A DNA stretch of 64,000 nucleotides from Ascidia mentula. Its lineage: Eukaryota; Chordata; Ascidiacea; Phlebobranchia; Ascidiidae. The stretch lies in assembly GCA_947561715.1 (NCBI GenBank), contig OX387197.1:26004266-26068265 (forward strand), given 5' to 3'. How positions within the stretch are numbered: position 1 is the first letter of the stretch; each line of letters starts with the position of its first letter. Positions 37,469 through 63,235 of the stretch are shown piece by piece. The notes beneath the pieces are model-generated. The model saw only the letters and a program-made list of their open reading frames with translations. It did no database searches and was not told the origin of the DNA. A program made the translations under genes and the position numbers.

Positions 37469-39348
37469 ATGAATTTACTTTTCGTGTTGTACTTAACACT
37501 ACTGCCTGTTGTCTTCTCCCAAACTTGGCACAAGCATGGAACAAGTGAATATTTGATTGGGTCAAGAGCGGATAAAGTCAACAGCTCTTCTGAAGCAGAA
37601 ACTGCATGTCAAGGATGGAATGCTCATGTAGCCAACGTCAAAACAAACGATACTTTTCATTTTTTAGTGGCTAAGATTGGAAATCTCACTGGCAAGTCTT
37701 TTGTCTGGAGTAAACTCACAATTGTAATGCAAACTAATCACTATTTCTTTTAATGTATTGAATAACTCTGGTTTGTAATGCTATGATATCAATTACGTGG
37801 ATCAGTATACTGATATAGTCCATACAGGTTGTGAGATTCAAAACTGCTTTAAATCATATGTGTACGGTTAAACTAATGTTGTCAAAGTAATCAAGTATTG
37901 TCATTTCTTTGAAGAACGACCCTACTCCTATTTCATTGGAGCGAAACGAAATGGGAGTACAAACAACTTTAAGTGGACAGATGGATCTAGAGTTGATAAT
38001 CCACAGTGGAGGGTGTGGAGGTTTGGGGGTAGGACATTCAGTGAACCAAACAACGACGGTGGACATGAAGATTGTGTGACAATGGGTTGGAGATGGGAAC
38101 CCGGAGACTTGAGGTGGATGGATTATCCATGCGACCAACCGGCTCGATACATTTGTGAAAGGCGGTCAGGTTAGATACTTTGGGTCAAAAACCATAGCCG
38201 AGGAAATGACATAGAAACTTACAACTTGTGAATAGATAGTTTTTCTGCAAATAAACACTGTTTTCCTGATGACATGTTGTTGCAGCAACGACATCGACCA
38301 CGACGGTTAACACTGCAGCGTTAAGAACAAGTACAACAACAACAACATCCAAGCACGCCAAAGGAAGTACCACGTCTGTTGGGATAGAGTTATCCAGCGG
38401 TACCAACGAATTGACCAAGAAAACAACCGTACTGATTACCACGACCGGTAAACCAACAGACATAGTTGTAACAGTCTTATGCACTAGCACAATAAGTATT
38501 TATAAATACTGTTGAATATACCCAATTAATTTAAACTTTTCATAAACTACACCCAAAAACAGTGTTTAATTTCCAACCAATATTGTAGCATCCAACAGCA
38601 CCAACTTATCAGCTATCATTGGTTGGACGCTGGCTTGCATTGCAGTGATTGCCCTAATTTGCATGGTTGGATATCATGTGATGAAGCAAAGACGAAAAAC
38701 AAGGCGAGATCAAAAATTGTTGTTTGTTTATTATCTGAAGAGTAAACACTGTTTTTAGGGATGTTGGATTGGAAAATCCCACCGAAGTCACATTTGCAGC
38801 AGCGGCAGGTGAGTGAACAGTCTACGGTGACCAACGCTTTATTTGCATGTTATATAATTTTTTGTTAATTTGGACGCATTATCAAACGGCGATGATCTCG
38901 ATAGTCTATTATTTAATACACAAGTTATTCTGTTCCCCATCAGAAGTCGATTTGGATAATCAATTCTTTAGTCTGCTGTGTCTGCGATGTTTTTAGACAG
39001 CCTGTAAACATGCGTTTTTATTCTTTGTCGAGGTTGACTTTACAAGCCGAGTGCACTAAAAAATACACGTCACCAGAAAATCATCAACTCATCAACTTGA
39101 AATTATGTTTTGTGTTTTTGATTTAATCACTTCTTGTCTCAACATCTGTAGATAACGGACAACCAGACGATGCGTACATTTTGCCACAAGCCATCCCATT
39201 GACCAATAACCAACCAGCACGGCAGAACCATCCTTCTAACCAACACCAACCAAACCCTGACATCAACCATTACGAAACCACGCAAGATCCTCAATACGTG
39301 AATATTAAAACTACTGATGGGAATTCAGAATACATGAATTTCAAGTAA
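37469..39348 (+). CDS. Type I C-type lectin receptor with Y-x-N signalling tail, unit 1
   Basis: Six exons (37469-37691, 37915-38169, 38286-38447, 38589-38703, 38759-38808, 39152-39348) give 333 residues. Order: signal peptide (MNLLFVLYLTLLPVVFSQ), C-type lectin domain at about 20-159, Thr-rich stalk, one membrane helix (IIGWTLACIAVIALICMVGY), basic stop-transfer (KQRRKTR), tail. The domain has the four core cysteines, an EPN motif (mannose-type calcium site) and WMD where WND is usual. The tail has YILP, YETT, YVNI and YMNF; the last two are Y-x-N, the context bound by Grb2-family SH2 domains when phosphorylated, so a signalling role at the cell surface is likely. Ligand unknown. Introns 1 and 4 need GC donors (GCAAGT, GCGAGA); the lectin frame across intron 1 excludes a GT site. 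The 55-base intron 4, if retained, ends the protein early without the tyrosines. Confidence 0.9.
38942..38996 (+). other. Possible alternative terminal exon of the lectin receptor, unit 1
   Basis: An acceptor-like CCCCATCAG is followed in phase 1 by EVDLDNQFFSLLCLRCF and a stop. In unit 2 the corresponding stretch stays open longer, through FNQPVNMRFYSLSRLT. If used, it would replace the tyrosine tail. The unequal ends in the two units argue against strong constraint. Confidence 0.25.
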
Positions 39349-40907
39349 AGTTCCAGAAAACGAAAAACAATTATCACTGCATACTTTCAAAGTTTTAATT
39401 ATGTTTGTTGATTCTAATTAAATCATGATTAAAGGGCTTCGATCCTAATAAGTCTCATCAGTGCAGCTATGTTGTGACTTTGAACGACCTTGTCAGCTAA
39501 ATAGATGACATAGACATTATTGGCTCAATTGCTTGTACTTGTCTTGAAATGTTGGTATTGTGTTTTTATGATGTAGTTGATTTTTTAATGTAAGCCTTGC
39601 ATTGCTGCATTGCGTCGAACTACTTCCTTATGGGAAGTTCCTCCTGCCAACGTCGTCATCAATTAAGTAAAGCTTGATTGTTACGTAGGAGCCGTGCAGC
39701 TTCCCGAACTAATACTCACGCGGTTCTTATGATTGGTATTTACTCACTGCAGCACGAATATCAACTTAGCCATTGTGCCTTGATCCACTACACGTTGATA
39801 AACAAAGATTTGCTCTGTTTGTTGTGTACGAGTGAAGTGCAAGAATAAAAATGTATTTGGGATTTGGGATTTGTGATGCAAGAACTCGTTTGAAGCAGAT
39901 CTTGACCTACTTACGATTAATTTCAGGACAATCACGTATTTCTTTACCCTGCCAGGCCTGTTTAGTTTTATTTATTTTCTGTTTAGTTGACGAAGAAATG
40001 TAATAATCCAGTAATAGACCAAATCAACTCGGAAAACCGTCCTCCGGATTAAACTCATGCGACTGTTGTGCATCTTTGGTCATCGTGATTCATTTGCTGA
40101 GTTGAGCAATGGCTTTCATTTCCTATGCAGATACTCGATATGGTAACTGTGTTATGTGTGGAGTTCTGTGCGATCGACGCAAAATATGGCCCACATTTGC
40201 GTTACATTTAGTTCTGGTTGCTTTTTTTTGCTCAATCGCGCTTGAGAATATTAAAACCAAAGCCATTGTAATCACGCTTTCTACGCATTTCCAAGTTGTG
40301 ATGCCCAGCAAAACGACATAGGAAAAAAAGAACTAATTTCCAGTTTAGGTCAATTTCACAAAGGACAATTTAGTAGGAAATACTTGCTGAGCTGGTGGCA
40401 GGTGACAAAATTGTAACCAGTAGAAGCAACGACATTATAGTTGTGTTATAACCCATGTATATAGATAACTTATGCAACCAAATTAGCTACGTAAATAAAC
40501 TTAAATTAAACACAGGTAGTTCCTTCGCAAAAATGAAATAGGGTCAAATTAAATACAGGTATTTTTATTTGCAAATTAGTAATGCAAAATTGCGCAAACA
40601 ATTCCATGAATTGCGCAATCAACGCTGGAAAACTTGGTCTATTTTGTTTGTTTGTCGAAATGCAACCACAGAAAAAGCAAACAAGAACGGGTTTCTGGTG
40701 GAATACGTTTACGCGGAGGAAGTGCGGTTCACCAATCGTGCGAAACAATGGCAAAGAGCGTGTTAATTTTGCAGTGAGGGCTAAGGAGTCATTTCCAGCC
40801 GTGTACTTTACGTTAAAATTAGTTTGATGAATTGCTTTGTCACTTTGAACAACCTGGAATAAATTATCCATATCAGCTTTAATCTATTGCCTTTTTGCAA
40901 TTGTTAG
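39349..40907. other. Lectin-receptor 3' flank and spacer, unit 1
   Basis: I see no gene. From about 40569 the sequence becomes related to the MRH gene region at 43218, which marks the start of an internal paralogous block. Confidence 0.5.
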
Positions 40908-41032
40908 GTAGTCAAAAAACCCAACATGAAAGGACACACCAACCAACCAACGAGCAGTTTCAACAACCACATTACGTGAACTCTCCAAGAACCGTGCACT
41001 ACCAAAACGACACTGATTATGTTAACTTTTAA
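40908..41032 (+). pseudogene. Orphan Y-x-N tail exon, unit 1
   Basis: A complete copy of the last MRH-receptor exon, preceded by the same TTGTTAG acceptor and open to its stop. It encodes SQKTQHERTHQPTNEQ followed by YVNS, YQND and YVNF ends. No MRH exon stands in front of it. It accepts phase 1, which is the phase leaving exon 5 of the lectin gene 2.1 kb upstream, so a lectin transcript could in principle splice to it instead of its own tail. Otherwise it is a relic of an older duplicate. Confidence 0.7.
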
Positions 41033-41256
41033 TTAGATAAGGTTTCCATTGCACTCGGTTGAATAGTCGTATAAACCTGCCATAGTCAAAGTGTCATAAT
41101 TTGAGCCTCCCAAAATACAAAACATTACAGAAATAGCTGGTGTTTCAAAATAGAATCCTCCAATAATTTTTGTGTTGTTTTTCCAAAATTTATGCAACTA
41201 AAGTGACCTTTGTATGGCCTTGGTTGGTATTTGAAATGAGAATTGTAACCCCCTAA

Positions 41257-41495
41257 GCTGCTGCGCTTCGATGTTGTTGTCACGTGACATGCCTCCGGCT
41301 TGTTGCTCGTTGTTGCTGCTGCTGTTTCCCTTTTGCCTGCTCAGTCCTTTATTACCCCGACGCTTTTCTTGCATGCGCTCATTGTAGTACTGATGATGAA
41401 CCCAGTTAGTGTTCGAAACGTTTACTAATGATTAACATCATTTTAGCTTTGGCTTTCATTTTCAAAGTTATCAACTCCAAATATTTTGCACCCAA
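41257..41495 (+). mobile_element. Short Penelope-like/retroposon insertion with hammerhead motif, unit 1
   Basis: The 239 bases are flanked by a perfect 11-base target repeat, GTAACCCCCTA, at 41246 and 41496. The related site at 46620 has a similar sequence once and no insertion, which confirms the ends. It contains CTGATGA, a hairpin (GAAC loop GTTC) and GAAACGTT, bracketed by TAGTA and TACTA. That is the type I hammerhead order with the minimal ACGT helix III known from Penelope-like retroelements. The minus strand keeps a 50-codon open stretch (YYNERMQEKRRGNKG). Confidence 0.65.
41385..41427 (+). ncRNA. Candidate minimal hammerhead ribozyme, unit 1
   Basis: Helix I TAGTA/TACTA pairs at 5 of 5. 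The core boxes CTGATGA and GAAA are intact, helix II is GAAC/GTTC around a 9-base loop, and helix III is the two-pair ACGT form seen in Penelope-like elements, followed by T as the cleavage base. One unpaired T sits between CTGATGA and helix II, which departs from the strict consensus. Such minimal forms usually act as dimers. Activity is not shown. Confidence 0.5.
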
Positions 41496-41506
41496 GTAAC
41501 CCCCTA

Positions 41507-43076
41507 CTTTGTACATATCTTGTAGAATGTTTCTCGTAACTTTTTTTTTTAATGAAATATTTTCTCTGTAAAGACCCTGTTTTGACATTTTCACGCAGGT
41601 ATTCTAGTAGTTATCACATGTTGAACCACGAATTTCCGTTTTCCCTTATAAAGAGAAAAAATCCCCAGTCGTCACTTATCAACAGTGGTTGGCATCTCTC
41701 GCGGTAATTGATCGCCTCTCACCTCATAAACTGAAGCGCATTTCAGTGTGTGGTGAACGTAGCAGATGAGCGGAGAACCAAGAAATATAGTTACGAGAAT
41801 TTTCGACGTCAAAATGTCAACAGGCTGGTATTAAGTAAACGTTTTGTTGTCTGGTGTAATAACGTAACACGATAACGCATTCCAACAGCAAGACAAGGAT
41901 GTAAACAATCCTGTGGGTTAGAATGTAACTCTTTTGGAAAACGTACTTAAACTTACGTGCGAGGTTCACTGCAATCCCTTGAACTTTATAAGCACGTTTC
42001 TCGGTGACTTGTGATTGTCGTGTTACAACACAGATGCCATGCTATTGTGAACCCAGAAGATGTGCAAATAGTAACGCGTTTTCTTGGATGCATTGTACTG
42101 TGGTATAGTAGCCTTATAGCATATATTACAAGAATGTCATTTATCCTTTTGTCAAACAATTGTTTCATTCCTTTTCCAAATTTTATTTGAATTTTCTGGC
42201 ATTTCAATTAAAAAGACCCGGTGTCTCATTAATCATTGACGTAAATTGTGTCGTTTTTCTAATGAGGTTCTGCCAGGGTTCATGCAATGAAGCTGTTGGA
42301 TTTGTTCGTAATGATGCAGGTTTTGGTGTGGTTGTATCTGGTTTTGTCGATGTTGTGTCATTGCTTAATTGGTTGCTTCAAGATCTTTAGTTCTAACATA
42401 GTTTTACATTTCCAACAATATCATGGTCGGATGTTATGACGTTAGCAGAGCATTTAGCCGCTAGTAATAATCCCCAACGCGTTTGAACGTCAGATCTAAA
42501 TCCGAAATCTCAAGCCAAAATTTGCTTTCTGGCGTCAACAAACTGAAAAAGGTCTTTGTCAAACGGATTTTCATTTTCTACGAAAGATCCTGATACTGAG
42601 GGTCACATTAAGGTAGCCACGCGGTTAAGAATCTTCATCCTGCAAACTATGCGGGATTTTCCTCCAACAAAAGTTTTTGGTTTCGATCCATTTCTATGCA
42701 GTCATTATTCAACGAAGGTTAGTTGCTCAAGTAAACAATGGGTGTACTGTAACGTAATAATGACGCGCACAAGCTTGTAGAATCAGACCAGTAAGTTATG
42801 TTACCGGTAAGAACCAAGTTAAGGCAGCAAAGCTTTTATTGCGGTACAATATAATGTCTTGTGTTGAGAGGTTTATACCATTAGTTATAGTTCTTTTCAA
42901 CACATGGTCGGTCAGATTGAACAAATCACAGCCTTCTCAGGCCATGTCAGGCAAATAATCTAAATTTTGCAAATGAGCATTCGATGCTTTACATAGTTTC
43001 TTGTTTATATTTTCCTTAGCCATAAGATCACTATAGGGCAGACATATTGCACTTGGTTTGGACACAAGCGTTGATT
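41507..43076. promoter_or_regulatory. Upstream region of the MRH receptor gene, unit 1
   Basis: I see no coding exon. It includes the second copy of the shared 5' module (42668-42890). A TTTCCTTAG acceptor-like site at about 43012-43020 precedes the MRH ATG, so a 5' untranslated exon may lie in the shared module. About 103 bases near 42138-42240 are missing from unit 2. Confidence 0.5.
42668..42890 (+). repeat. Shared 5' module of the two receptor genes (MRH copy, unit 1)
   Basis: The partner of 36700-36908. It has the same order of AATGGGTGTACTGTA, ACGTAATAATGACGCGCA, GGCAGCAAAGCTTTT and TGTTGAGAGGTTTATA. The unit-2 copy is at about 59490-59708. Confidence 0.65.
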
Positions 43077-46000
43077 ATGGTAATTTATCCGGGTATGTGT
43101 CGTGTGTTGCTGCTGGTATTACCCTTTCTCCCTACTTCTCTTTCAAAAACATGTGCAAGAAGTGGAACTTGTATGTGAGTACCACAAATATCCTATGTTT
43201 ATTTATGTAAATTAGTAATGCAAAAAAGTGCAAACAATTCCTTCAATTGCGCAATCAACGCTGGAAAGCTTGGTCTCTTTTGTTTGTTTATCAAATGCAA
43301 CCACAGAAAAAAAAAAAAGACTTATTCCGTACATATTTTTAGGTGTTCGATGTCCGACAACAGCGGAACCATTGACCTGCGGAGTATTGGTTCGACCAAC
43401 GGCACCCCAAGGTGGTCAATCCGCGACCAACCGTGGACTTTCAAATACAATCCATGTGTTGGTTTCACTTCTCCACAGTTCACTGACCTTGCTGTAAGTG
43501 CTGGCATGAAACTACACAAACGTTAGTTGCCACACGTGTCACTAAACGTGAGGCAGTTATATTGCTTACATGCTGCGCGCATAAGCAAGAAGGTTGTGTT
43601 CGTACAACAATAGGGTTGCCAGAAGTCCTGGCTTTCGCACACATTCCTCGTATGTTGTTGTTAAAATCTCATAGATGACTTAAAACAATATTTCAAAACT
43701 GTCAAACAATGTTCAAATTTTTGGAAGTTGTTTGCTGCGAACAAAAAAATTCGTGCGAAAGCGATACTATTGTTGCGTTACGTCATAGAAGGTGCTTTGG
43801 TCTTGCGAGTGCTGACAGCCTCATGCGTTTAGGAATGGAAAAAATTGTAAAACTGGTTTAGTATAGTATTGCATTAAATAGGGGACAACAGCAGAAGTCA
43901 ATTTGTGTAAACAAACAACGTCTCTCTTCAATGTAATGGCAGAGGGAACGACGTAAGTTTGAAGCCTGTATACATTTTAATGCAGGTTCACCAGCGAAAC
44001 AACACAAACCCTGCAGAGGAATTCGACCTCGGTGTTCAAACAAGCGAAACGTTTGTAACTGATTTTCAAGGGGCCGTTTCCATCACATACCTTTCAAAAG
44101 ACAAATTCAGGTAATATTCACATCTGCTTCTCTCCATTAAATTAATAGCTTGGTTTTCATGTTTTAATCATTCATGTTTCAAGTATTTTATTCGTTGGAA
44201 ACACTAGGCAGCTAATGTTTCGTTGTAGATTCATTTTATATTGATATAACTAAAGCGCATCATTACAAACCTCACCACGATATTTTAAACAAAATTTAGC
44301 TTGTTAACATTTGGAAATGATAATATTTTGTACTGCGGTTGCTTAGATCCTTTTAATAGTGCAATATATGTTGTAAATAAATGCAAAACATTTGGGATTC
44401 GGAACCACACTATTCTGTGCATAAACCGCCATATGTGTCTTTCGGTTAAAACATTCTCACGGGTTTTTAATCAAACTTTATTGTTTTTAGACTTACTCGT
44501 GTTTTTCTGGTTTGCGAACCCGCTGTCACCGACCATAATCTGCGGTTCATCGGTGAACTCGTAATAACCGAATACGTAAGCTCAATAAGCGACCTCCATG
44601 TGTATATCATTGGTTTAACTTCTCACTTCCCACCAACATTTCCTTTGAATATAAATTTCTCAAATACATCAATGTCTGGGAAACCCGATCTATACGAGTT
44701 CAATGCACAGAGGTTTCATAAATCGACGTTTTTTATTTACGTTGCAGTATTTCATCTTAACAAGTCCCTGCGCGTGTCCAGGGGCTTGTGACGTCAAAGG
44801 AATTATTCGTAAGTCTCTTTATTTCTTTTTAAAGCAATTCAAAGGGCATTACCTTAAACCACATCCGTCTTAGACTTTACCTCAATAAATCACCGCTGAT
44901 AGATTGTAAACATTCTCAATGCAAATGAAGTAATGGTTTTGAAACAAAGTCAAAAACAAAAGAGTGTCGTGGTCTACATATAGTGGCTAGTAAACAACTT
45001 GCTAAGCGACCTTCACAATTACAACCCATAATGCTCAGAATATTGCAGCTGAGTTCGCCATTGCAATAGGGCGATCCTACCTTGCTATGTCACACAACAT
45101 GAGACACTTTTTTTAAATTGCACAATTAATTTCTGCCTTAAATTTTAACTTAAATTGTTCTTTACGTTACATATGGCACACTATCACTCTGATAAATCTT
45201 ACAAAAGTATTTGCGGCTTCAGTTAGAAGCATATTTGCATTATATAACATGACCATTAACCGTACCTAATTTGAATCCTCCCCAATTTACAGAAGAGACA
45301 ACAACAAAAGCTGAAACAACAACAAAAGTTGCTGCAATAGCTACAGCAACAGCGTCAGATGTCCTACTGAAGCACTCAACAGAAGTAGAAAACAGAATCA
45401 CAGCACAAACCCAAGGTAAACGTAGAACAGGAAACAACAAATATTGGATTTGGTGTAACGATTGCAAAAACAGAGATATTGCTTTTCCAAAGTAAACTAC
45501 ACACATTTTGTTTAAATTTGAATGAAATGTGGGACATATGTAACTAAAAGACGATATTTTATTTTTCTGTGATATTTTTCAGCTATTAGTGGGCTAATTT
45601 ACTGGAAAACGCTGACCATCATTGGTTGGGTGATTGCTGGTGTTTCCGTAACTGTGACCTTGTGCATTACTATCTTCTGCGTAACATCACAAAAATCCAA
45701 TAGAAGGTAATTAATTGGAAGGCTAACAGTGTCGTTTTGTATGGTGTCAGTTACGTAATGGTGGCAAATTTATACACGGTGCTACATTAAAACAACTTTG
45801 ACAAACTTCCGATTAACTCCTTCACACAGCATGTTATATTTGCAGACCCGTCCTTTCCGAGGAATCCAAAAGACAGACAGGCATGTTTTATATAAGTTTT
45901 TTATTATAATTGAAGTGGGTTTGAGGATAAATGTTAAAGTTACTCGTGCTCCATGACTTTAACTCATAGTTTGAAAGCAGGAAACCAGTTTGCCATTAAT

Positions 46001-46410
46001 CATCATTGATCATCATGGTGTTTAAGCTTTATAAAAATATATATCTGTTACAAATGTTGATTACAACGGATTTCTGGTGGAATACGTTTACGCGGAAGGT
46101 ACGGTTCACCAATCGCGCGAAACAATGGCAAAGTTCGTGTTTCACTTTTGCAGTGAAAGCTTCAAAACATTTCCAGGCACCTACTATACGTTAGAATCAT
46201 TTTGATGAATCGCTTTGCCACTTTAAACAACAAGGAATGAATTATCCATATCAGCTTTAATCTATTGCCTTTTTGCAATTGTTAGGTAGCCAAAAAGCCC
46301 AACATGCAAGGACACACCAACCAACCAACGAGCAGTTTCAACAACCACATTACGTGAACTCTCCAAGAACCGTGCACTACCAAAACGACACTGATTATGT
46401 TAACTTTTAA
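43077..46410 (+). CDS. Type I MRH-domain receptor with three Y-x-N tyrosines, unit 1
   Basis: Nine exons (43077-43174, 43343-43493, 43986-44110, 44491-44575, 44748-44808, 45293-45415, 45583-45706, 45846-45880, 46286-46410) give 308 residues. Order: signal peptide (RVLLLVLPFLPTSLS), an MRH domain at about 28-174, a Thr/Ala-rich stalk, a membrane helix (IIGWVIAGVSVTVTLCITIF), a tail. MRH landmarks are SGTIDLRSIGSTNGTPRW, PWTFKYNPCVGF, VHQ, FDLGVQTSETF, RVFLVCEP and IGELVITEYYFILTSPCACP. Candidates for the sugar-binding Q, R, E and Y are present; the Cys usual before the Q is His. The three tail tyrosines lie in YVN, YQN and YVN, so the tail suits SH2 adaptors and not the sorting signals of lysosomal M6P receptors. 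The last intron needs a GC donor (GCATGT) to keep frame. Confidence 0.87.
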
Positions 46411-47221
46411 TTAGATAAGGTTTCCATTGTACGTGGTTGAATAGTCGTATAAACCTGCCATAGTCAAAGTGTCATAACTTGAGCCTCCCAAAATACAAAA
46501 CTTTACAGAAACAGCTGGTGTTTCAAAATGGAATCCTCCAATATTTTTGTGTTGTTTTGCCAAACTTTATGCAACTTAAGTGGCCTTTGTATGGCCTTGG
46601 TTGGTATTTTAAATGAGAATTGTAACCCTTACTTTGTAAATATCTTGTAGAATGTTTCTTGCAATATTTATTGAATGAAATATTCTCTGTAAAGACCCTT
46701 CTGCTTCTGCAACTTTTATTCCGCAAAAAAGGTTTTCCTGAAACATTTTCTTGGATGCATTGTACTGTGGTATCGTGGCCTCATAGCATTTATTGCAAGA
46801 ATGTCGTTTATCCTGGTGTTATTTTGACTGAAAAAGCGTTCGTAGTTATGTTTCCCGTAATACAACAGGTAAAGCGAAATAATTACTTTCGTTATTTTAT
46901 CGCGCTGTGACACTGACGCTTTGGAAAGGAATTACGTAAAACAGGAGAAAGGGTTTTTCCCGAGCACGTCATTAACGGATTTGTGTCGATTATGCGTTAC
47001 CTGGGAAAAGTGAAAGATGACGTGACTACAGGGTTAAACCACGACGTTTAACGTTGTTTGTAATCTAGCAGTATGGGTTATACGAAACGTTGGCTAATAA
47101 ACAAAATCAGCACATTGGTTTTACCGTTACATAAACCTTCGTTTTAAGTGAACCTGTTTAGAACTTAGATTCGATATTTGTTTTAACATCATAAACGTTG
47201 GCTTCATACGTTCCAAGGTTC
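46411..47221. other. MRH 3' flank up to the duplication junction
   Basis: No gene seen. The sequence is related to the orphan block downstream of 41033. The last bases before the junction show no similarity to DMTF1 intron 7, which fixes the breakpoint. Confidence 0.6.
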
Positions 47222-50200
47222 AACAACATAAAGAATGTGGTCGATTTAATTTTCACAAGCGACAAGGAGACACGTAAAGATTTCTATCCTTCACTGTGCA
47301 ACGGGTTGAACAGACCCTTGTTTGCAGTTTACAGAAGAGTGAAGCGAATGTACGACAAGAGAAACTATAAAGGAAAGTGAGTAAAACTTTTGGAAACATT
47401 TTATTTGTAGGTTTCTCATCAATAAACTTCCAACAATAATTTATAAATGTTTTTTTAGCAATCTTACTTGTGTCTATTTTAATTGATGGATATGTATTGC
47501 TTTGTCTTGGTATTTGTGAAATAAATTTGCAAATCACGGATACTAGAAAAGTAACAGACAACCATAATCCGTGCATTAGACTTGTTGGTATGGCAACGCA
47601 ATAAAAGGTGTCCTGTTTGTCAGATACTCAGAAGAGGAGGTTAACAAACTGAAGGAGTTGCGGAAAATGTACGGGCACGATTGGTCGGTTATTGGACAGG
47701 AACTCGGTCGTAGTTCGGATTCAGTTAAAGACCGATGTCGTCTGATCAAAGACGATCTAACTACAGGTTAGGAATAATTATTCTTTGTTTCGTCACAAAC
47801 GCGCTTTGTTAGCTTTCGTTTTTTTTTGCTAAAGTAACTGTGGTTGAGATTGGTGACTTTGTGGTGGAATGTAACACAGAAAATATTGTGACCGCCTCAA
47901 TTACAATTCCGTTTAGTAGGCTTCGCTTGTCCGGGACGTTTCGTGGGCAACCTTCAGTTTGACTGAATTGAAGCTCGCGCGAGTCTGATGCTAATCTAGA
48001 ACGAAATCGCTCACAGATCGATAACCTTAACATCTTTGTCCACCGTGTTCGTGAAATTAGCGAAAATCTCGCCGGGTCTTCATACTTTCCGATATCCAAT
48101 AACCGGTAATACTGTGGTAATCCTAATGAAAGTTCTTGACTTTCTCTTTTTGTGCTTCCGTGAATACAAACCAGGGATGGGCGAACTTATTGTAAACTCG
48201 CATTCCAGAAATAGGTTGGCCACTGGGTCACGTGAGTAAAAGTGCACAAACAGTTTTGACGCAAGTTCATGAACTGCCCCCTTTACAATAATTCACAACA
48301 ATTTAGTGTAAACGTTGCAACCGTAAAAAAACAGGCAATGAAAAATTGAATTTAACTGTTGTATAAACACCGTTGTAAAGCGCCATTAGATTATGCCAAC
48401 TCCTGGCGGACCAGACTTAATGATATAAGAGACCAGATTGGTCCGCGGACCGTAGCTTGCCCCTCTATGCTATAGACGCATGAAATATTGCTGTGTTCAG
48501 GTCGTTGGACGTCTATGGAGGAGAGCAAGCTTGACTTTGCTGTTCACGCCGTCACCAACACCAGCTTAGGCGAATCTGTTACTGACGGTGTTTCCTGGCC
48601 CCTGGTCGCAGAAATTGTAAGTATTTGATCACATAATCAGCTTTACGGTAGACCTACACTATAACGAAAAACCACCTGTGCTTATCTCTATATAAATGCC
48701 ACCAGTTTTGTCATTTAAAAGGTATTATAAGTTAAATAATTAAATATACGTGATCGGAAGGCATGGGACTGGAATTTTGCCGGTTTTCACAAAGTTCAAT
48801 TCTTTTCACATTAAATGGATTTCTTTCGAATACTTTTACACCATTTTCTTTGCACTTTAGTTTAGGTTTTTGTTTAAATCACGTTGTTGATTACTCCGCA
48901 AATGCAGAAAGAACAACTGACTTAGAATAAACCGAATGTAACAGTGAGCTGTACGACCATGAACTGATATTAACTTCCTCAGGTGAAAACACGCACTGAG
49001 AAGCAATGCCGGACTAAGTGGTTAAATTACTTGAACTGGAAGCGAATGCAGGGAGACCCGTGGACGAAGAACGATGACAAACTTCTGGTGGCAAAGTACG
49101 TGTATTGGTTGAGACGATTTTGTTATGATTTAGAGGCAATACTTCATTGTAACTGATGTTTTGACCCCGCATGTACTACCAGCCTTATGGTAATCACTGC
49201 TTTACATTATGGCAAAAAAAAAAACATTTTCAAGCGCTTGTGTCGAAAACGCGTATACGTTTCCTCAGAAAGGTTTTGATCGTTCGTCACTGTTTACGTT
49301 AAAACTTATATACGAGATATTTGTTCGCAGAATATCTGATACCGACGTTGGAGCGGAGAATGAGGTGGATTGGTCGGGCATGTGTGGGGATTGGAAAAGC
49401 GCACGATCTCCACAGTGGCTTCGACTCAAGTGGAACGGATTAAAAAAGTTGATACCGGAAAACGAGTCGGAAAATTTCACTTTTAAAGGTAAGTTACAGT
49501 CAGTTCAAGAATTTCTTGTTGATTGCTATAACGTATACAACCTGACACTGATTAAATTGTGTTAGGGTTCTGTCCTGCTACGTCGTTATAAATCCGTGAT
49601 CTAATCTGTTTGTAGCTTGTGTGTTGGTTTTGCATCGGAATTTAAAACGTAATAACTTGACGTCATCGTTTTATGTCCATCAGAGACTGTGACGTATCTT
49701 AAAAATCACTTCTCCACTTCAAACCCAACCAGAACATGGGAAAAGACGAAAAAACCTTCCTCCGATCGTCTGAAGCAAATCCACGGGAAGCAACACAAAA
49801 TTAGTGCCGCAGATTTGCGTAAGTTCGAGATTTGCATCAAGATGAATGGCCAACTTTATGTTTTCTAAATTATTGCTGAATGCTGCCGGGCATGTTTTCT
49901 TGCTGCAATACGGATACTGATGAAGGCTGCTGCATGGTGGCCGAAACGTTGTTACAGTGAAATGGATGTTTTCCGTTACAATCCCTGGACAAGAAAAATT
50001 TGATGCAAATAGATTCCATGCTAAATAAGATTTTTCCATTTTTATTTCAATTACTTGCATCCCACGGTTCGATAAACGCGAGTCCGTTTTAAGATTTCAA
50101 CGGATTTGAAACGTAAAAATGTAGCATCTTCTTTGATAAAACTTCGCACGAAAAAAGCACATCCCTATTTAACAAAATATACACGTTAAAAAGTACAGAC

Positions 50201-53191: not shown

Positions 53192-54300
53192 CGTGTCGGG
53201 GAAAACCCTTTCTCCAGTTTCTCAAGTTTACCTTCTCTTCATCGTGACGTAACTACTTCCCGAAGCGTCAGTGTGCTTTGTGATGCAATAATGTCAATTG
53301 TTTTTTCAATTATTTGTTTGTTTTTTGTCATCCTTGAACAAAAGGATATTTGTGCGCCCGTACATTGACGTAATAATTAAGGATTCGAACTTGGCGAATT
53401 GTTTTGCTTCAAAGTCTGTAAATGTTGTGAACGTTTTCCAACAATATCAAAGCCGTCCATCACAGTAAGTTAACCGAGTCTGTTCGTTTGGCTGCAGCCT
53501 CCAATCTGGAATATTTCCTCCACGTCTTTCCTCCCAACAAACGTTTTCGGTTTCTTTGAAAGTAACAAAGTTTGGTATCCCAATGAACAATGGGTGTACT
53601 GTGACGTAATAATGACGCGCATAAGTTTGCAGTATCAGGCCAGGAAGCTATACAAAGAGCTAGTATATGACAGCAAAGCTTTTTGATGCGATGCAGTACA
53701 ATGCCTGGTGTTGAGAGGTTTATAACGTTAGTTAAAGTGATTTTTTACTATATGCTGTAAGACTGAACTGGATTAATTAAATTGCTTTTCCAATACAGAT
53801 TAAATTAATAGATGCCAGGGTATTATTGCCAAGCATAATGCTAATCTATATTTATGTAAAAAGCATTTAATGTAGATTTTCGATTCAATTAGTTTTCCAT
53901 CGTGGTGCAGTTACATTAAATAAAAAGTGTCGTTTCCACCAAGTTCAGATTTGGGTCTAAATAATAAAGTTAAACCACCTCAAAACAAAGCAATAAACAA
54001 TTCGCAAATGTACGAGACGGAATAATTTTGTTGGTTTCCTCTTAAGGATAGCCATGGATGTGGTGGTAATTTCATAGGTGCCGGGGCGCTGCGAAATGAA
54101 AACTCATAAAGTTGTATGACAGAATAATCTTGCTAATGGCCGATGACTTGCAATATACAAAATTTTCGAAATACAAAATAAAGACGGTCTGACGATCCTA
54201 ATTTCCAAACACCCACTCATTTTGCACAATTTCTGATCCGACATAATTTTTTTTTTGCAAAACTCTACTATCGACATTTTGTTTTGCAGCATTACAAAGT
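53192..54300. promoter_or_regulatory. Lectin-receptor upstream region, unit 2
   Basis: The counterpart of 36361-37468, including the shared 5' module at about 53530-53735 and the TTTTGCAG site just before the ATG. Differences from unit 1 are few. Confidence 0.55.
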
Positions 54301-56168
54301 ATGAATTTACTTTTCGTGTTGTACTTAACACTACTGCCTGTTGTGTTCTCCCAAACTTGGCACAAGCATGGAACAAGTGAATATTTGATTGGGTCAAGAG
54401 CGGATAAAGTCAACAGCTCTTCTGAAGCAGAAACTGCATGTCAAGGATGGAATGCTCATGTAGCCAACGTCAAAACAAACGATACTTTTGATTTTTTGGT
54501 GGCTAAGATTGGAAATCTCACTGGCAAGTCTTTTGTCTGGAGTAAACTCACAATTGTAATGCAAACTAATCACTATTTCTTTTAATGTATTGAATAACTC
54601 TGGTTTGTAATGCTATGATATCAATTACGTGGATCAGTATACTGATATAGTCCATACAGGTTGTGAGATTCGCAACTGCTTTAAATAATATGTGTACGGT
54701 TAAACTAATGTTGTCAAAGTAATCAAGTACTGTCATTTCTTTGAAGAACGACCCTACTCCTATTTCATTGGAGCGAAACGAAATGGGAGAACAAACAACT
54801 TTGAGTGGATAGATGGATCTAGAGTTGATAATCCACAGTGGAGGGTGTGGAGGTTTGGGGGTAGGACATTCAGTGAACCAAACAACGACGGTGGACATGA
54901 AGATTGTGTGACAATGGGTTGGAGATGGGAACCCGGAGACTTGAGGTGGATGGATTATCCATGCACCGAACCGGCTCGATACATTTGTGAAAGGCGGTCA
55001 GGTTAGATACTTTGGGTCAAAAACCATAGCCTATGAAATGACATGAAAAATTACAACTTGTGAATAGATAGTTTTTCTGCAAAAAAACACTGTTTTCTTA
55101 ATGACATGTTGTCGCAGCAACGACATCGACCACGACGGTTAACACTGCAGCGTTAAGAACAAGTACAACAACAACAACATCCAAGCACGCCAAAGGAAGT
55201 ACCACGTCTGTTGGGATAGAGTTATCCAGCGGTACCAACGAATTGACCAAGAAAACAACCGTACTGATTACCACGACCGGTAAACCAACAGACACAGTTG
55301 TAACAGTCTTATGCACTAGCACAATAAGTATTTATAAATACTGTTGAATATACCCAATTAATTTAAACTACACCCAAAAACAGTGTTTAATTTCCAACCA
55401 ATATTGTAGCATCCAACAGCACCAACTTATCAGCTATCATGGGTTGGACGTTGGCTTGCATTGCAGTGATTGCCCTAATTTGCATGGTTGGATATCATGT
55501 GATGAAGCAAAGACGACAAATAAGGCGAGATCAAAAATTGTTGCTTGTTTATTATCTGAAGAGTAAACACTGTTTTTAGGGTTGTTGGATTGAAAAATCC
55601 CACCGAAGTCACATTTGCAGCAGCGGCAGGTGAGTGAACAGTCTACGGTGACCAACGCTTTATTTGCATGTTATATAATTTTTTGTTAATTTGGACGCAT
55701 TTTTAAACGGCGATGATCTCGATGGTCCATTGTTTAATACACATGTTATTCTGTTCCCCTTCAGAAGTCGATTTTGGTAATCAATTCTTTAGTCTGCTGT
55801 GTCTTCGATGTTTTAATCAGCCTGTTAACATGCGTTTTTATTCTTTGTCGAGGTTGACTATATATGCCGAGTGCACTAAAAAATACACGTCACAAGAAAA
55901 TCATCAACTCATCAACTTGAAATTATGTTTTGTGTTTTTACTTTAATCACTTCTTGTCTCAACATCTGTAGATAACGGACAACCAGACGATGCGTACATT
56001 TTGCCACAAGCCATCCCATTGACCAATAACCAACCAACACGGCAGAACCATCCTTCTAACCAACACCAACCAAACCCTGACATCAACCATTACGAAACCA
56101 CGCAAGATCCTCAATACGTGAACATTAAAACTACAGATGGGAATTCAGAATACATAAATTTCAAGTAA
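54301..56168 (+). CDS. Type I C-type lectin receptor, unit 2
   Basis: Six exons (54301-54523, 54747-55001, 55118-55279, 55410-55524, 55580-55629, 55972-56168) are complete and in frame with the same layout as the unit-1 gene, including the two GC donors. The lectin domain keeps EPN and the four cysteines. Exon 2 differs from unit 1 at six bases, all altering residues (Ser to Arg, Lys to Glu, Thr to Ile, and Asp-Gln to Thr-Glu just after the third Cys), with no silent change. The tail keeps YVNI; the last motif is YINF instead of YMNF, still Y-x-N. A second functional receptor with altered binding is likely if the duplication is real. Confidence 0.88.
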
Positions 56169-57824: not shown

Positions 57825-57949
57825 GTAGTCAAAAAACCCAACATGAAAGGACACACCAACCAATCAACGAGCAATTTCAACAACAACATTACGTAAACTC
57901 TCCAAGAACCGTGCACTACCAAAACGACACTGATTATGTTAACTTTTAA
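57825..57949 (+). pseudogene. Orphan Y-x-N tail exon, unit 2
   Basis: It matches the unit-1 orphan exon and stays open, with a few replacements (QPIN for QPTN, QQQHYVN for QQPHYVN). The base before it has changed the acceptor from TTAG to TTTG, so it probably can no longer be spliced. This supports reading the orphan exons as relics, at least in this unit. Confidence 0.7.
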
Positions 57950-58173
57950 TTAGATTAGGTTTCCATTGTACTCGGCTGAATAGTCGTATAAACCTGCCAT
58001 AGTCAAAGTGTCATAACTTGAGCCTCCCAAAATACAAAACTTTACAGAAATAGCTGGTGTTTCAAAATGGAATCCTCCAATAATTTTTGTGTTGTTTTGC
58101 CAAAATTTATGTAACTAAAGTGACCTTTGTATGGCCTTGGTTGGTATTTGAAATGAGAATTGTTACCCCTAAG

Positions 58174-58412
58174 CTGCTGCGCTTCGAAGTTGTTGTCACG
58201 TGACATGCCTCCGGCTTGTTGCTCGTTGTTGCTGCTGCTGTTTCCCTTCTGTCTGCTCAGTCCTTTATTACCCCGACGCTTTTCTTGCATGCGCTCATTG
58301 TAGTACTGATGATGAACCCAGTTGGTGTTTGAAACCTTTACTGATGATTAACATCATTTTAGCTTTGGCTTTCATTTTCAAAGTTATCAACTCCAAATAC
58401 TTTGCACCCAAG
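58174..58412 (+). mobile_element. Short retroposon insertion with worn hammerhead motif, unit 2
   Basis: The same insertion as at 41257-41495, so it predates the tandem duplication. Here the hammerhead boxes read GTTTGAAACCTT, which changes the minimal helix III and one helix II pair, so a ribozyme fold is less likely. The minus-strand open stretch is kept. Confidence 0.6.
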
Positions 58413-59897
58413 TAACCCCCTACTTTGTACATATCTTGTAGAATGTTTCTTGCAACTTTTTTTTTTTAAAGAAATATTTTCTCTGTAAAGACCCTGTTTT
58501 GACATTTTCACGCAGGTATTCTAGTAGTTATCACATGTTGAACCACGAATTTCCGTTTTCCCTTTTTAAGAGAAAAAATCCCCAGTCGTCACTTATCAAC
58601 AGTGGTTGGCATCTCTCGCGGTAATTGATCGCCTCTCACCTCATAAACTGAAGCGCATTTCAGTGTGTGGTGAACGTAGCAGATGAGCGGAGAACCAAGA
58701 AATATATTTACGAGAATTTTCGACGTCAAAATGTCAACAGGCTGGTATTAAGTAAACGTTTTGTTGTCTGGTGTAATAACGTAACACGATAACGCATTCC
58801 AACAGCAATTCAAGGATGTAAACAATCCTGTGGGTTAGAAAGTAACTCTTTTGGAAAACGTACTTAAACTTACATGCGAGGTTCACTGCAATCCCTTGAA
58901 CTTTATAAGCACGTTTGCTCGACTTATTGTTGTCGTGTTACAACACAGATGCCATGCTATTGTGAACCCAGAAGATGTGCAAATAGTAACGCGTTTTCTT
59001 GTATGCATTGCACTGTGGTATCGCAGCCTTATAGCATGTATTGCAAGAATGTCGTAAATTGTGTCGTTTTTCTAAGAAGGTTCTGCCATCAGGGTTCATG
59101 CAATGAAGCTGTTGGATTTGTTCGTAATGACACAGGTTTTGGTTTGGTTTTATCTGGTTTTGTCGATGATGTGTCATTAGTCGATTGGTTGCTTCAAGAT
59201 CTTCAGTTCTAACATAGTTTTACATTTCCAACAATATCGTGGTCGAATGTGATGAAGCATCCAAACGCTAGTAATAATCCTCAAAGCGTTTAAACGTCAT
59301 ATCTAAATCCGAAATCTCAAGCGAAAATTTGTTTTCTGGCGTCAAAAACTGAAAAAAAGTTTTTGTCAAACGGATTTTCATTTTCTACGAAAGATCCTGA
59401 TACTGAGGGTCACATTAAGGTAGCCATGCGTTTTGCTGAGCGCGGTTGAGAATCTTCATCCTGCAAACTATGCCGGATATACCTCCAGCAAAAGTTTTTG
59501 GTTTCGATTCACTTCTATGCAGTCATTATTCAACGAAGGTTAGTTGCTCAAGTAAACAATGGGTGTACTGTAACGTAGTAATGATGCGCACAAGCTTGTA
59601 GAATCAGACCAGGAAGTTATGTTACCGGTAAGAACCAAGTTAAGGCAGCAAAGCTTTCATTGCGGTACAATATAATGTCTTGTGTTGAGAGGTTTATACC
59701 ATTAGTTATAGTTCTTTTCAACACATGGTCGGTCAGATTGAACAAATCACAGCCTCTTCAAGCAATGTCAGGCAAATAATCTAAATTTTTAAAATGAGTT
59801 TTCAATGCTTTACATAGTTTCTTGTTTATATTTTCTTTAGCCATCAGACCACTATAGGGCAGACATATTGCACTTGGTTTGGACACAAGCGTTAATT
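58413..59897. promoter_or_regulatory. Upstream region of the MRH receptor gene, unit 2
   Basis: The counterpart of 41507-43076, with the shared 5' module at about 59490-59708. No coding exon seen. Confidence 0.5.
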
Positions 59898-62800
59898 ATG
59901 GTAATTTATCCGGGTATGTGTCGTGTGTTGCTACTGGTATTACCCTTTCTCCCTACTTCTCTTTCAAAAACATGTGCAAGAAGTGGAACTTGTATGTGAG
60001 CATCACTAATTTCCTATGTTTATTTATGTAAATTAGTAATGCAAAAAAGTGCAAACAATTCCTTGAATTGCGCAATCAACGCTGGAAAGCTTGGTCTCTT
60101 TTGTTTGTTTATCAAATGCAACCACAGAAAAAAAAAAGACTTATTCCGTACATATTTTTAGGTGTTCGATGTCCGACAACAGCGGAACCATTGACCTGCG
60201 GAGTATTGGTTCGACCAACGGCACCCCCAGGTGGTCGATCCGCGACCAACCGTGGACTTTCAAATACAATCCATGTGTTGGTTTCACTTCTCCACAGTTC
60301 ACTGACCTTGCTGTAAGTGCTGGCATGAAACTACACAAACGTTAGTTGCCACACGTGTCACTAAACGTGAGGCAGTTATATTGCTTACATGCTGCGCGCA
60401 TAAGCAAGAAGGTTGTGTTCGAACAACAATAGGGTTGCCAGAAGTCCTGGCTTTCGCACACATTCCTCGTATGTTGTTGTTAAAATCTCATAGATGACTT
60501 AAAACAATATTTCAAAACTGTCAAACAATGTTCAAATATTTGGAAGTTGTTTGCTGCGAACAAAAAAATTCGTGCGAAAGCGAAACTATTGTTGCGTTAC
60601 GTCATAGAAGGTGCTTTGGTCTTGCGAGTGCTGACAGCCTCATGCGTTTAGGAATGGAAAAAATTGTAAAACTGGTTTAGTATAGTATTGCATTAAATAG
60701 GGGACAACAGCAGAAGTCAATTTGTGTAAACAAACAACGTCTCTCTTCAATGTAATGGCAGAGGGAACGACGTAAGTTTGAAGCCTGTATACATTTTAAT
60801 GCAGGTTCACCAGCGAAACAACACAAACCCTGCAGAGGAATTCGACCTCGGTGTTCAAACAAGCGAAACGTTTGTAACTGATTTTCAAGGGGCTGTTTCC
60901 ATCACATACCGTTCAAAAGACAAATTCAGGTAATATTCACATCTGCTTCTCTCCATTAAATTAATAGCTTGGTTTTCATGTTTTAATCATTCATGTTTCA
61001 AGTATTTTATTCGTTGGAAACACTAGGCAGCTAATGTTTCGTTGTAGATTCCTTTTATGTTGATATAACTAAAGCGCATCATTACAAACCTCACCACGAT
61101 ATTTTAAACAAAATTTAGCTTGTTAACATTTGGAAATGATAATATTTTGTACTGCGGTTGCTTAGATCCTTTTGATAGTGCAATATATGTTGTAAATAAA
61201 TGCAAAACATTTGGGATTCGGAACCACACTATTCTGTGCATAAACCGCCATATGTGTCTTTCGGTTAAAACATTCTCACGGGTTTTTAATCAAACTTTAT
61301 TGTTTTTAGACTTACTCGTGTTTTTCTGGTTTGCGAACCCGCTGTCACCGACCATAATCTGCGGTTCATCGGTGAACTCGTAATAACCGAATACGTAAGC
61401 TCAATAAGCGACCTCCATGTGTATATCATTGGTTTAACTTCTCACTTCCCACCAACATTTCCTTTGAATATAAATTTCTCAAATACATCAATGTCTGGGA
61501 AACCCGATCTATACGAGTTCAAAGCACAGAGGTTTCATAAATCGACGTTTTTTATTTACGTTGCAGTATTTCATCTTAACAAGTCCCTGCGCGTGTCCAG
61601 GGGCTTGTGACGTCAAAGGAATTATTCGTAAGTCTCTGTATTTCTTTTTAAAGCAATTCAAAGGGCATTACCTTTAAACCACATCCGTCTTAGACTTTAC
61701 CTCAATAAATCACCGCTGATAGATTGTAAACATTCTCAATGCAAATGAAGTAATGGTTTTGAAACAAAGTCAAAAACAAAAGAGTGTCGTCGTCGACATA
61801 TAGTGGCTAGCAAGTAAACAACTTGCTAAGCGACCTTCACAATTACAACCCATAATGCTCAGAATATTGCAGCTGAGTTCGCCATTGCAGTAGGGCGATC
61901 CTACCTTGCTATGTCACACAACATGAGACACTTTTTTTAACTTGCGCAATTAATTTCTGCCTTAAATTTTAACTTAAATTACTCTTTACGTTACATATGC
62001 CACACTATCACTCTGATAAATCTTACAAAAGTATTTGCGGCTTCAGTTAGAAGCATATTTGCATTATATAACATGACCATTAACCGTACCTAATTTGAAT
62101 CCTCCCCAATTTACAGAAGAGACAACAACAAAAGCTGAAACAACAACAAAAGTTGCAGCAATAGCTACAGCAACAGCGTCAGATGTCCTACTGAAGCACT
62201 CAACAGAAGTAGAAAACAGAAATACAGCACAAACCCAAGGTAAACGTAGAACAGGAAACAACAAATATTGGATTTGGTGTAACGATTGCAAAAACAGAGA
62301 TATTGCTTTTCCAAAGTAAACTACACACATTTTGTTTAAATTTGAATGAAATGTGGGACATATGTAACTAAAAGACGATATTTTATTTTTCTGTGATATT
62401 TTTCAGCTATTAGTGGGCTAATTTACTGGAAAACGCTGGCCATCATTGGTTGGGTGATTGCTGGTGTTTCCGTAACTGTGACCTTGTGCATTACTATCTT
62501 CTGCGTAACATCACAAAAATCCAATAGAAGGTAATTAATTGGAAGGCTAACTGTGTCGTTTTGTATGGTGTCAGTTACGTAATGGTGACAAATTTATACA
62601 CGGTGCTACATTAAAACAACTTTGACAAACTTGCGATTAACTCCTTCACACAGCATGTTATATTTGCAGACCCGTCCTTTCCGAGGAATCCAAAAGACAG
62701 ACAGGCATGTTTTATATAAGTTTTTTATTATAATTGAAGTGGGTTTGAGGATAAATGTTAAAGTTACTCGTGCTCCATGACTTTAACTCATAGTTTGAAA

Positions 62801-63235
62801 CCAGGAAACCAGTTTGCCATTAATCATCATTGATCATCATGGTGTTTAAGCTTTATAAAAAATATATATCTGTTACAAATGTTGATTACAACGGATTTCT
62901 GGTGGAATACTTTTGCGCGGAAGGTACGGTTCACCAATCGCGCGAAACAATGGCAAAGTTCGTGTTTCAGTTTCGCAGTGAAAGCTTCAAAACATTTCCA
63001 GGCACCTACTATACGTTAGAATCATTTTGATGAATCGCTTTGCCACTTTAAACAACAAGGAATGAATTATCCATATCAGCTTTAATCTATTGCCTTTTTG
63101 CAATTGTTAGGTAGCCAAAAAGCCCAACATGCAAGGACACACCAACCAACCAACGAGCAGTTTCAACAACCACATTACGTGAACTCTCCAAGAACCGTGC
63201 ACTACCAAAACGACACTGATTATGTTAACTTTTAA
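59898..63235 (+). CDS. Type I MRH-domain receptor, unit 2
   Basis: Nine exons (59898-59995, 60162-60312, 60805-60929, 61310-61394, 61567-61627, 62117-62239, 62407-62530, 62670-62704, 63111-63235) are complete and in frame, 308 residues. Signal peptide, MRH domain, Thr-rich stalk, membrane helix and the YVN, YQN, YVN tail are as in unit 1. In the exons of the signal peptide and MRH domain I count four silent changes and one replacement (Leu to Arg in ITYxSKDK). The stalk and membrane exons add one silent change and two replacements (Ile to Asn, Thr to Ala). The tail exon is identical. This looks like a constrained gene, in contrast to the lectin gene next to it. Confidence 0.86.

Follow-up and report, generated by a model that had tools for sequence, protein, structure and literature searches.

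How two neighboring genes came to carry unrelated ectodomains on similar tyrosine-bearing tails is the question raised by a 64,000-nucleotide stretch (the window) of chromosome 1 of the tunicate Ascidia mentula (kaAscMent1.1, C1:26004266-26068265). The longest scaffold of this assembly is A. mentula chromosome 1 (PMC11109543). Positions below are counted from the start of the window, and the count is continued past its end where needed. An earlier sequence-only reading had described two adjacent type I membrane receptors at 37469-63235, one with a C-type lectin domain (CTLD) and one with an MRH domain. Both gene types were found there, but the range spans a tandem duplication and holds two lectin/MRH pairs, with the third copies just beyond it. 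A 16.8-kb unit containing one CTLD gene and one MRH-like receptor gene occurs in three tandem copies. Unit 1 (30404-47222) and unit 2 (47222-64047) are 95 to 97% identical in blocks, whereas unit 3 (64047 to ∼81000) shows block identities of 84 to 98%, with 94% around the lectin gene and 90 to 91% across most of the MRH gene. A partial further copy of the unit is also present, and a fourth MRH copy is partial. Lectin A (37469-39348) encodes a signal peptide, a CTLD, a Thr-rich stalk, one transmembrane (TM) helix, and a tail exon with four tyrosines; MRH A (43077-46410) encodes a signal peptide, an MRH-like domain, a Thr-rich stalk, one TM helix, and a tail exon with three tyrosines. The gene models were built from DNA, with introns inferred from splice signals, frame, and paralogues, and with the models of copies B and C projected by alignment from copy A. 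The explanation that we favor, with good though not full confidence, is that these are two chimeric type I receptors produced by exchange of exon blocks among three neighboring clusters on chromosome 1, which would bind glycans and signal through their tails.

Comparison with genomic relatives showed that each gene is a mosaic. Copy A (window 36400-47300) was compared by blastn with 13 loci, one of which (L039) gave no match, and copies B and C were compared in the same way with 9 loci. In the lectin gene, positions 37450-38264 matched DNA of the CTLD-a cluster (86.6% identity to L054, 87.6% to L056 from 37485), and positions 38266-39428 and beyond matched the CTLD-b cluster and a copy at 24.49 Mb (84.0% to L070 from 38270, 80.5% to L077, with identity to L077 up to 94% over the tail). 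The matches to L054, L056, and L037 ended at 38264 (those to the more distant L064 and L066 ended earlier), and those to L070, L075, L076, and L077 began at 38266-38270, only ∼6 nt away. In the MRH gene, positions 42997-44971 matched the MRH cluster (L018/L036; 80.8%, 86.5%, and 73.5% in three blocks), and positions 45299-46753 matched a 3′ block of CTLD-a receptors, called module 1 (82.1% to L037, 81.8% to L056, and 84.8% to L054, the last to 46417). Here the L018/L036 match ended at 44971, and those to L054, L056, and L037 began at 45299-45300. The same two joins were found in all three copies (lectin gene, 55101/55098-55100 in B and 71854/71859-71860 in C; MRH gene, 61633-62123 in B and 79038-79268 in C). 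Therefore, the mosaic is older than the triplication, and an assembly join error was ruled out by the identical joins. Both joins separate ectodomain from stalk and are located within a phase-1 intron or at its edge, which preserves the reading frame. Intron phases are the same in both genes, namely, 1 between ectodomain and stalk, 1 between stalk and TM, 2 between TM and juxtamembrane, and 1 between juxtamembrane and tail. In both genes, as in exon-shuffled receptors, the ectodomain and the 3′ part have different genomic relatives and meet in the same phase. Judged by these matches, the lectin gene consists of a CTLD-a ectodomain and a CTLD-b stalk, TM, juxtamembrane, and tail (module 2), and the MRH gene consists of an MRH-cluster-related ectodomain and module 1, which elsewhere sits on CTLD-a receptors. 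Recombination at the ectodomain-stalk intron would have joined an established membrane/tail block to a new head for ligand binding; in the MRH gene the exchange point was perhaps in the stalk, at its ACA-rich Thr codons.

Relatives of both parents lie within ∼0.6 Mb (CTLD-a cluster, 25.35-25.66 Mb; CTLD-b cluster, 26.13-26.18 Mb; MRH cluster, 26.57-26.63 Mb). The CTLD genes that bear module 1 are 0.4 to 0.6 Mb from the MRH gene, and the MRH cluster is ∼0.5 Mb off. Several head-tail combinations were apparent when 16 exon queries were mapped on 43 of 78 locus sequences. First, CTLD-a with module 1 was complete at 25.484, 25.513, and 25.644 Mb and broken at 25.460 Mb. Second, CTLD-b with module 2 was found at 26.130, 26.139, 26.144, 26.151, and 26.182 Mb, although at the last two only the second of the CTLD exons was found; at 26.173 and 24.493 Mb, module 2 was present and the sequence covered was that of the 3′ module. 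Third, CTLD-b occurred with module 3 at 26.092 and 26.147 Mb, and CTLD-a occurred with a more distant module at about six loci. Finally, two combinations were seen in this array only: CTLD-a with a close module 2 (three copies) and MRH with module 1. All three native MRH genes examined (26.571, 26.587, and 26.633 Mb) differ in their TM and lack a tail of this kind. A whole-genome search placed tail 1 in the CTLD-a cluster (five matches on the plus strand, two weak antisense) and in the array (seven, one of them partial), whereas the MRH cluster gave none. The MRH cluster contains eight matches to MRH exon 2 and seven native 3′ exons, and one more exon-2 match lies on C2. At the protein level, the lectin tail is 89 to 94% identical to seven tails of the CTLD-b cluster and the 24.49-Mb copy, and the MRH-gene tail is 86 to 94% identical to the tails of four CTLD-a-cluster loci. 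The exchange of ectodomain exons proposed in the sequence-only reading thus stood up, here over shared 3′ modules, but its "small" receptor family did not, since the CTLD-a cluster by itself holds at least 66 matches to the lectin first exon (a lower bound, as 120 of 802 candidates were scored). Directly after the array, on the minus strand (C1:26089006-26108263; L013, L014), more CTLD-b-type exons were seen, including one gene with a third tail type. In the relative at 26.147 Mb, this tail type ends with Y-V-N-K and D-A-Y-M motifs.

The two tails had been described as convergent. This was not the case, because CTLD and MRH ectodomains carry one and the same DNA block, module 1, and because homology links the TM exons of modules 1 and 2 (hhalign E 1.2e-5; the score of 34.0 compares with 25.5 for the best of 120 shuffles, in which the TM part and the remainder were each shuffled internally). 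The tails alone aligned only around [DQ]P[QH]YVN (P 0.0072, without a shuffle control). Modules 1 and 2 as a whole thus go back to common descent and have since diverged. All three tyrosines of the MRH tail, which ends in DYVNF, are indeed Y-x-N, and the same three are present in copies B and C; by residue shuffle, three of three in tail 1 has a P of 0.00036. The lectin tail has four tyrosines, two of them Y-x-N in A and one in C, and ends in EYMNFK (A), EYINFK (B), or EYMDFK (C). Enrichment of Y-x-N above chance was seen in tail 1 and not in the lectin tail. Immunoreceptor tyrosine-based inhibition or activation motifs (ITIM/ITAM; [SIVL]xYxx[ILV] or paired YxxL) were absent from the tail 1 and tail 2 translations; YVNI has P at −2, and neither tail has a paired YxxL.

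What the tyrosines would do is less certain than their pattern. The SH2 domain of Grb2 recognizes pYxNx (PMC10968029), and homologues of almost the whole ITAM/ITIM pathway, among them those of Grb2 and GADS, are reported to be expressed in the ampullae of Botryllus (PMC12065747). Clustering of the receptors would lead to phosphorylation of the tail tyrosines and to binding of Grb2/GADS-type SH2 adaptors at pYxN, and this recruitment would drive uptake or hemocyte activation. Alternatively, the tails may not signal via Grb2 at all, the tyrosines serving endocytosis or sorting or as Y-x-x-phi motifs, with the Asn at +2 incidental in an Asn-rich tail. We consider this a serious possibility, though the less probable one. 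YVNI in tail 2 and the DYVNL ends of tail 1 in L054, L056, and L043 fit Y-x-x-[ILV], which is given as the core motif in the FcoR tails of Botryllus (PMC12065747), and Y-x-N is at chance not only in tail 2 but also in tail 3 (one of four tyrosines; P 0.32). This alternative has to explain why every tyrosine of tail 1 is Y-x-N and why these were kept in the three MRH copies, L054, L056, L037, and L043 while other positions changed. For the chimeric receptors, Grb2 signaling, the ligand, glycan recognition, and a role in self/non-self recognition are what we infer from sequence.

A second question is whether these are working genes. All six models (three lectin, three MRH) are open, with AG acceptors in all six and GT or GC donors. 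GC donors were found at the lectin TM exon (A, B, and C), the lectin juxtamembrane exon (C only), and the MRH juxtamembrane exon (A, B, and C). Across 38703, 38808, and 45880 and the corresponding sites of B, C, L054, L070, L076, and L077, GC donors recur at TM/juxtamembrane exon ends, and GT and GC alternate among paralogues; the GC donors of the receptor modules might have a role in weak or regulated splicing. A lectin model with the TM exon ending at 38741, in which copy C is frameshifted, was dropped since paralogues show a conserved donor at the position of 38703 (GC; GT in L077), followed by a 50-nt juxtamembrane exon. The Pfam scan and the genome search used this earlier model, which differs only in the short TM-to-tail stretch. 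An extra MRH exon near 43910-43953 was rejected because its frame lacks an AG acceptor and is interrupted by a stop in copy C; it is also disfavored by the direct join of exons 2 and 3, which aligns with an MPR domain. At 38166-38175, reading past the CTLD-exon donor leads to an immediate stop (S-G-stop) that is kept in several paralogues, and intron retention would therefore yield a secreted lectin.

Purifying selection was seen in the MRH ectodomain, with dN/dS (w) values of 0.07 (A-B), 0.46 (A-C), and 0.41 (B-C) and Fisher P values of 0.012, 0.048, and 0.019, respectively; several P values in this analysis are borderline, and the pairwise comparisons are not independent of one another. For the CTLD, pairs other than A-B gave w of 0.42 (P 0.059) and, for B-C, 0.31 (P 0.013). 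The stalks gave no significant value (lectin, 0.79 and 0.79, with A and B identical; MRH, 0.17, 1.60, and 1.74). Taken together, the ectodomains look maintained by selection, and two indels, one of 6 nt relative to the native MRH gene and one of 18 nt in the stalk of MRH C, leave the frame intact. The chimeras could instead be by-products of unequal recombination, some or all copies being unexpressed relics whose frames are open because they were duplicated recently. Copies A and B are indeed young (synonymous divergence, dS, 0 to 0.07), a stray partial MRH exon 2 adjoins the spare tail exon of copy C, the fourth MRH copy is partial, and the spare tail of copy B has TG in place of its AG acceptor. 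However, in all three copies both genes retain open frames and intact splice sites despite a dS of ∼0.1 between C and the other two, and neither the purifying selection in the MRH ectodomains and in CTLD B-C nor the survival of the frame through both indels is expected of relics, which makes this account unlikely.

The identity of the lectin-gene ectodomain as a CTLD is certain. Exons 1 and 2 of lectin A match Pfam PF00059 (E 4.6e-17; 63.1 bits compared to a cutoff of 22.6), as the sequence-only reading had it, and 18 distinct PDB sequences at E ≤ 0.001 are, by name, C-type lectin family members. The mannose-type Ca2+ site of CTLDs consists of EPN and WND; copies A, B, and C all have EPN and the downstream Glu/Asp but carry WMD in place of WND. 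The second ectodomain is probably an MRH fold. This grade was chosen because of a profile-profile match and a conserved residue set. Against CD-MPR and four CI-MPR domains, hhalign gave a score of 25.4 (P 0.0019, probability 14%), compared to 22.7 for the best of 150 column shuffles and 14.3 for the reversed profile. Gln64, Arg103, Glu125, and Tyr131 are invariant in all five MRH-like sequences (which include three native genes, two of them nearly identical) and align with CD-MPR residues; Gln, Arg, Glu, and Tyr are the sugar-contact residues of MRH/P-type lectins. A search of the PDB with the five-sequence profile gave seven matches, namely, two Tako8 and three Na/K-ATPase sequences, all five by chance, and two ERLEC1 at E 1.4 to 1.6. 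ERLEC1, an MRH lectin, was aligned in the right register but ranks below chance matches to a designed propeller. That the domain is an unrelated Cys-rich beta domain is improbable: the lack of Pfam support and the mostly chance PDB matches speak for it, but Cys, Gln, Arg, Cys, Glu, Tyr, and the final Ala-Cys fall in register with the MPR domains, ERLEC1 falls in the same register, and the hhalign score exceeds all shuffles. On microbes or other cells, each ectodomain would bind glycans, probably of mannose type, which we propose because of EPN in the CTLD and Gln-Arg-Glu-Tyr in the MRH-like domain. By Pfam, the CTLD was the sole domain of the lectin (in its earlier model), and no Ig or sushi domain was found in either protein. 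Stalk/TM matches to Pfam RIFIN (E 4e-5, below cutoff) and DUF4834 were discounted as reflecting low complexity.

Several points weigh against the chimeric signaling receptors proposed here. First, the parental clusters were covered only in part, and three further loci of CTLD-a type show weak tail-2-like matches (39 to 45%), a sign that distant relatives of module 2 may exist on CTLD-a ectodomains. Second, two Y-x-N among the four tyrosines of tail 2 does not exceed chance (P 0.10), and lectin C, L070, and several CTLD-b tails have Y-x-D in place of its last Y-x-N. Third, constraint is uneven: w was 0.61 for the MRH ectodomain compared to the native MRH gene (P 0.074) and 0.93 for CTLD A-B (9 differences, P 1, without purifying selection); TM plus tail gave 0.55 to 0.64 where defined, none significant; and the MRH C stalk is without visible constraint (w 1.6 to 1.7). 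Fourth, one GC donor is needed per gene type and two are needed in lectin C. Finally, the calcium site of the CTLD departs from the standard pattern (WMD for WND), and the MRH domain, which the sequence-only reading listed as seen, was not significant in searches of Pfam (none of five sequences matched an MRH family) or of the PDB (no match in a single-sequence HMMER search). That reading's observation as a whole was nevertheless borne out, with corrections to the pair count, the grade of the MRH domain, the Y-x-N statistics, and the descent of the tails. In its interpretation, the tunicate origin was right and ectodomain exchange was strengthened by the DNA matches, whereas the convergent tails and the small family were given up. 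Coordinates of the receptor genes and the associated elements are collected in Table 1.

Table 1. Exons, breakpoints, and associated elements of the receptor array (window positions)
Feature	Position	Strand	Remarks
Lectin A exon 1: signal peptide and CTLD first half	37469..37709	+	85-88% DNA identity to CTLD-a cluster genes
Lectin A exon 2: CTLD second half, EPN, WMD for WND	37915..38169	+	PF00059 over exons 1-2
Lectin A exon 3: Thr-rich stalk, module 2	38286..38447	+	phase 1-1
Lectin A exon 4: TM helix, module 2, GC donor	38589..38703	+	
Lectin A exon 5: juxtamembrane, phase 2 to 1	38759..38808	+	frame kept in lectin A/B/C, L070, L076
Lectin A exon 6: tail 2 (AYIL, HYET, YVNI, YMNF) and stop	39152..39348	+	
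MRH A exon 1: signal peptide	43077..43174	+	
MRH A exon 2	43343..43493	+	86.5% DNA identity to native MRH gene L018/L036
MRH A exon 3: conserved Gln; conserved Arg codon split with exon 4	43986..44110	+	
MRH A exon 4: conserved Glu; conserved Tyr is last codon	44491..44575	+	
MRH A exon 5: MRH-like domain end	44748..44808	+	
MRH A exon 6: Thr-rich stalk, module 1	45293..45415	+	
MRH A exon 7: TM helix, module 1	45583..45706	+	79-86% protein identity to TM exon of three CTLD-a receptors
MRH A exon 8: juxtamembrane, GC donor	45846..45880	+	
MRH A exon 9: tail 1 (YVNS, YQND, YVNF) and stop	46286..46410	+	
Lectin B	54301..56168	+	exons 54301-54541, 54747-55001, 55118-55279, 55410-55524, 55580-55629, 55972-56168
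MRH B	59898..63235	+	exons 59898-59995, 60162-60312, 60805-60929, 61310-61394, 61567-61627, 62117-62239, 62407-62530, 62670-62704, 63111-63235
Lectin breakpoint, CTLD-a left/CTLD-b right	38264..38270		inside phase-1 intron 38170-38285
MRH-gene breakpoint interval, MRH cluster left/CTLD-a module 1 right	44971..45299		
5′ module upstream of lectin A	36755..36914	+	copy B 53586-53738
5′ module upstream of MRH A	42734..42891	+	copy B 59555-59712
Spare tail-1 exon between lectin and MRH genes	40908..41032	+	phase 1, open, three YxN

Two further elements of the unit concern the receptors directly. A ∼160-bp 5′ module lies upstream of both genes and is 76 to 80% identical between gene types. The sequence-only reading had noted this sharing, and the module is both real and local: all seven genome matches (one of 54 bp) are inside the array, and this low number ruled out a transposon as its source. 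It is probably a promoter or leader region, through which the lectin and MRH genes might share a promoter; a leader exon is likely because the start-codon exon of each gene is preceded by an AG acceptor-like site. The second element is the spare tail-1 exon, the DNA of which is 91% identical to the MRH-gene tail region. Its acceptor is AG in A and C and TG in B (57825-57949), and it is possibly an alternative tail or a remnant. It lies in a segment (40686-42422) that matches the 3′ flank of the CTLD-a cluster (L037, L043). Between the module-2 and spare-tail segments, at another join, a genome-wide repeat was observed at 40251-40576 (at least 37 matches outside the array, with 40 of 170 candidates scored), which may mark a recombination point. 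Each unit also holds a Myb/SANT gene, presumably DMTF1/TTF1-like, which was copied along with the receptors (30404-36600 and 47222-53400; PF00249 was seen in the second copy). Farther upstream, an exon at 20361-20864 matches Pfam PF02779 (transketolase, pyrimidine-binding); we take it to resemble pyruvate dehydrogenase E1 beta.

Comparison with known systems showed both likenesses and differences. Mammalian NK-complex (natural killer) and Dectin receptors are also clustered CTLD receptors with tyrosine tails and paired signaling variants, but they are type II with an N-terminal tail, whereas the A. mentula genes encode type I proteins with the tail last. The MRH gene resembles CD-MPR, CI-MPR, and ERLEC1 in profile and in the Gln-Arg-Glu-Tyr set. 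However, MPRs and ERLEC1 are intracellular sorting or endoplasmic reticulum (ER) quality-control proteins, whereas in A. mentula the domain belongs to a receptor with a multityrosine tail, and Cys106-Cys141 of CD-MPR, a disulfide pair, has no counterpart in the hhalign alignment. A similar organization is seen in FcoR of the fuhc locus of Botryllus schlosseri, a large clustered multigene family of tunicate type I receptors with long tails, several tyrosine motifs including Y-x-x-[ILV], and alternative signaling motifs at one locus (PMC12065747). Unlike the receptors described here, FcoR has Ig and sushi ectodomains and tails with ITIM and hemITAM, and lectins go unmentioned in the main text of that paper (PMC12065747). 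Ciona CiCD94-1 and Botryllus CD94-like lectin are ascidian blood-cell membrane receptors with one CTLD, but the Botryllus form is type II, the Ciona form is said to lack carbohydrate binding, and the portions of the article consulted mention no Y-x-N module (PMC5465252). Amphioxus FrLRR is likewise a chordate immune-type receptor attributed to exon shuffling, with a link to Grb2 and phagocytosis, but it is a single glycosylphosphatidylinositol-anchored gene product with no tail and with Slit-type exons on another scaffold (PMC10199209). In A. mentula, by comparison, whole ectodomain blocks were swapped among neighboring clusters onto tyrosine tails.

A literature search lacking most subscription journals and all of bioRxiv found no paper on tunicate MRH lectins or on Ascidia mentula lectin receptors, and among the matches listed for the wider literature on tunicate and C-type-lectin receptors and exon shuffling there was no such report. 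Exon-shuffled tyrosine-tailed receptors are a known kind, here with an unusual ectodomain. We know of no earlier MRH-fold lectin that acts as a tyrosine-signaling cell surface receptor. A more ambitious view is a modular germline "head-and-tail" system, in which neighboring clusters of CTLD and MRH-like ectodomains trade entire phase-1 exon blocks with at least four stalk/TM/tail modules, the tail could be switched by splicing of the spare exon, and the MRH gene would be the first tyrosine-signaling MRH-fold receptor. This is a tentative proposal that we rate at somewhat less than an even chance.

How innate receptor families gain new folds while keeping their signaling partners is, in our view, usually inferred from old and blurred comparisons. 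Here, relatives of both parents lie close by, the breakpoints are defined to ∼6 and ∼330 nt, and other combinations survive. Therefore, ectodomain exchange becomes directly testable in a close relative of the vertebrates. Such exchange would let unrelated recognition folds share one signaling tail, a germline diversification of the innate receptor set. The locus also suggests that a signaling receptor can be made from the carbohydrate-binding MRH fold, whose known roles are mainly in lysosomal sorting and ER quality control. If this is true, new recognition folds could be placed on established phosphotyrosine signaling tails.

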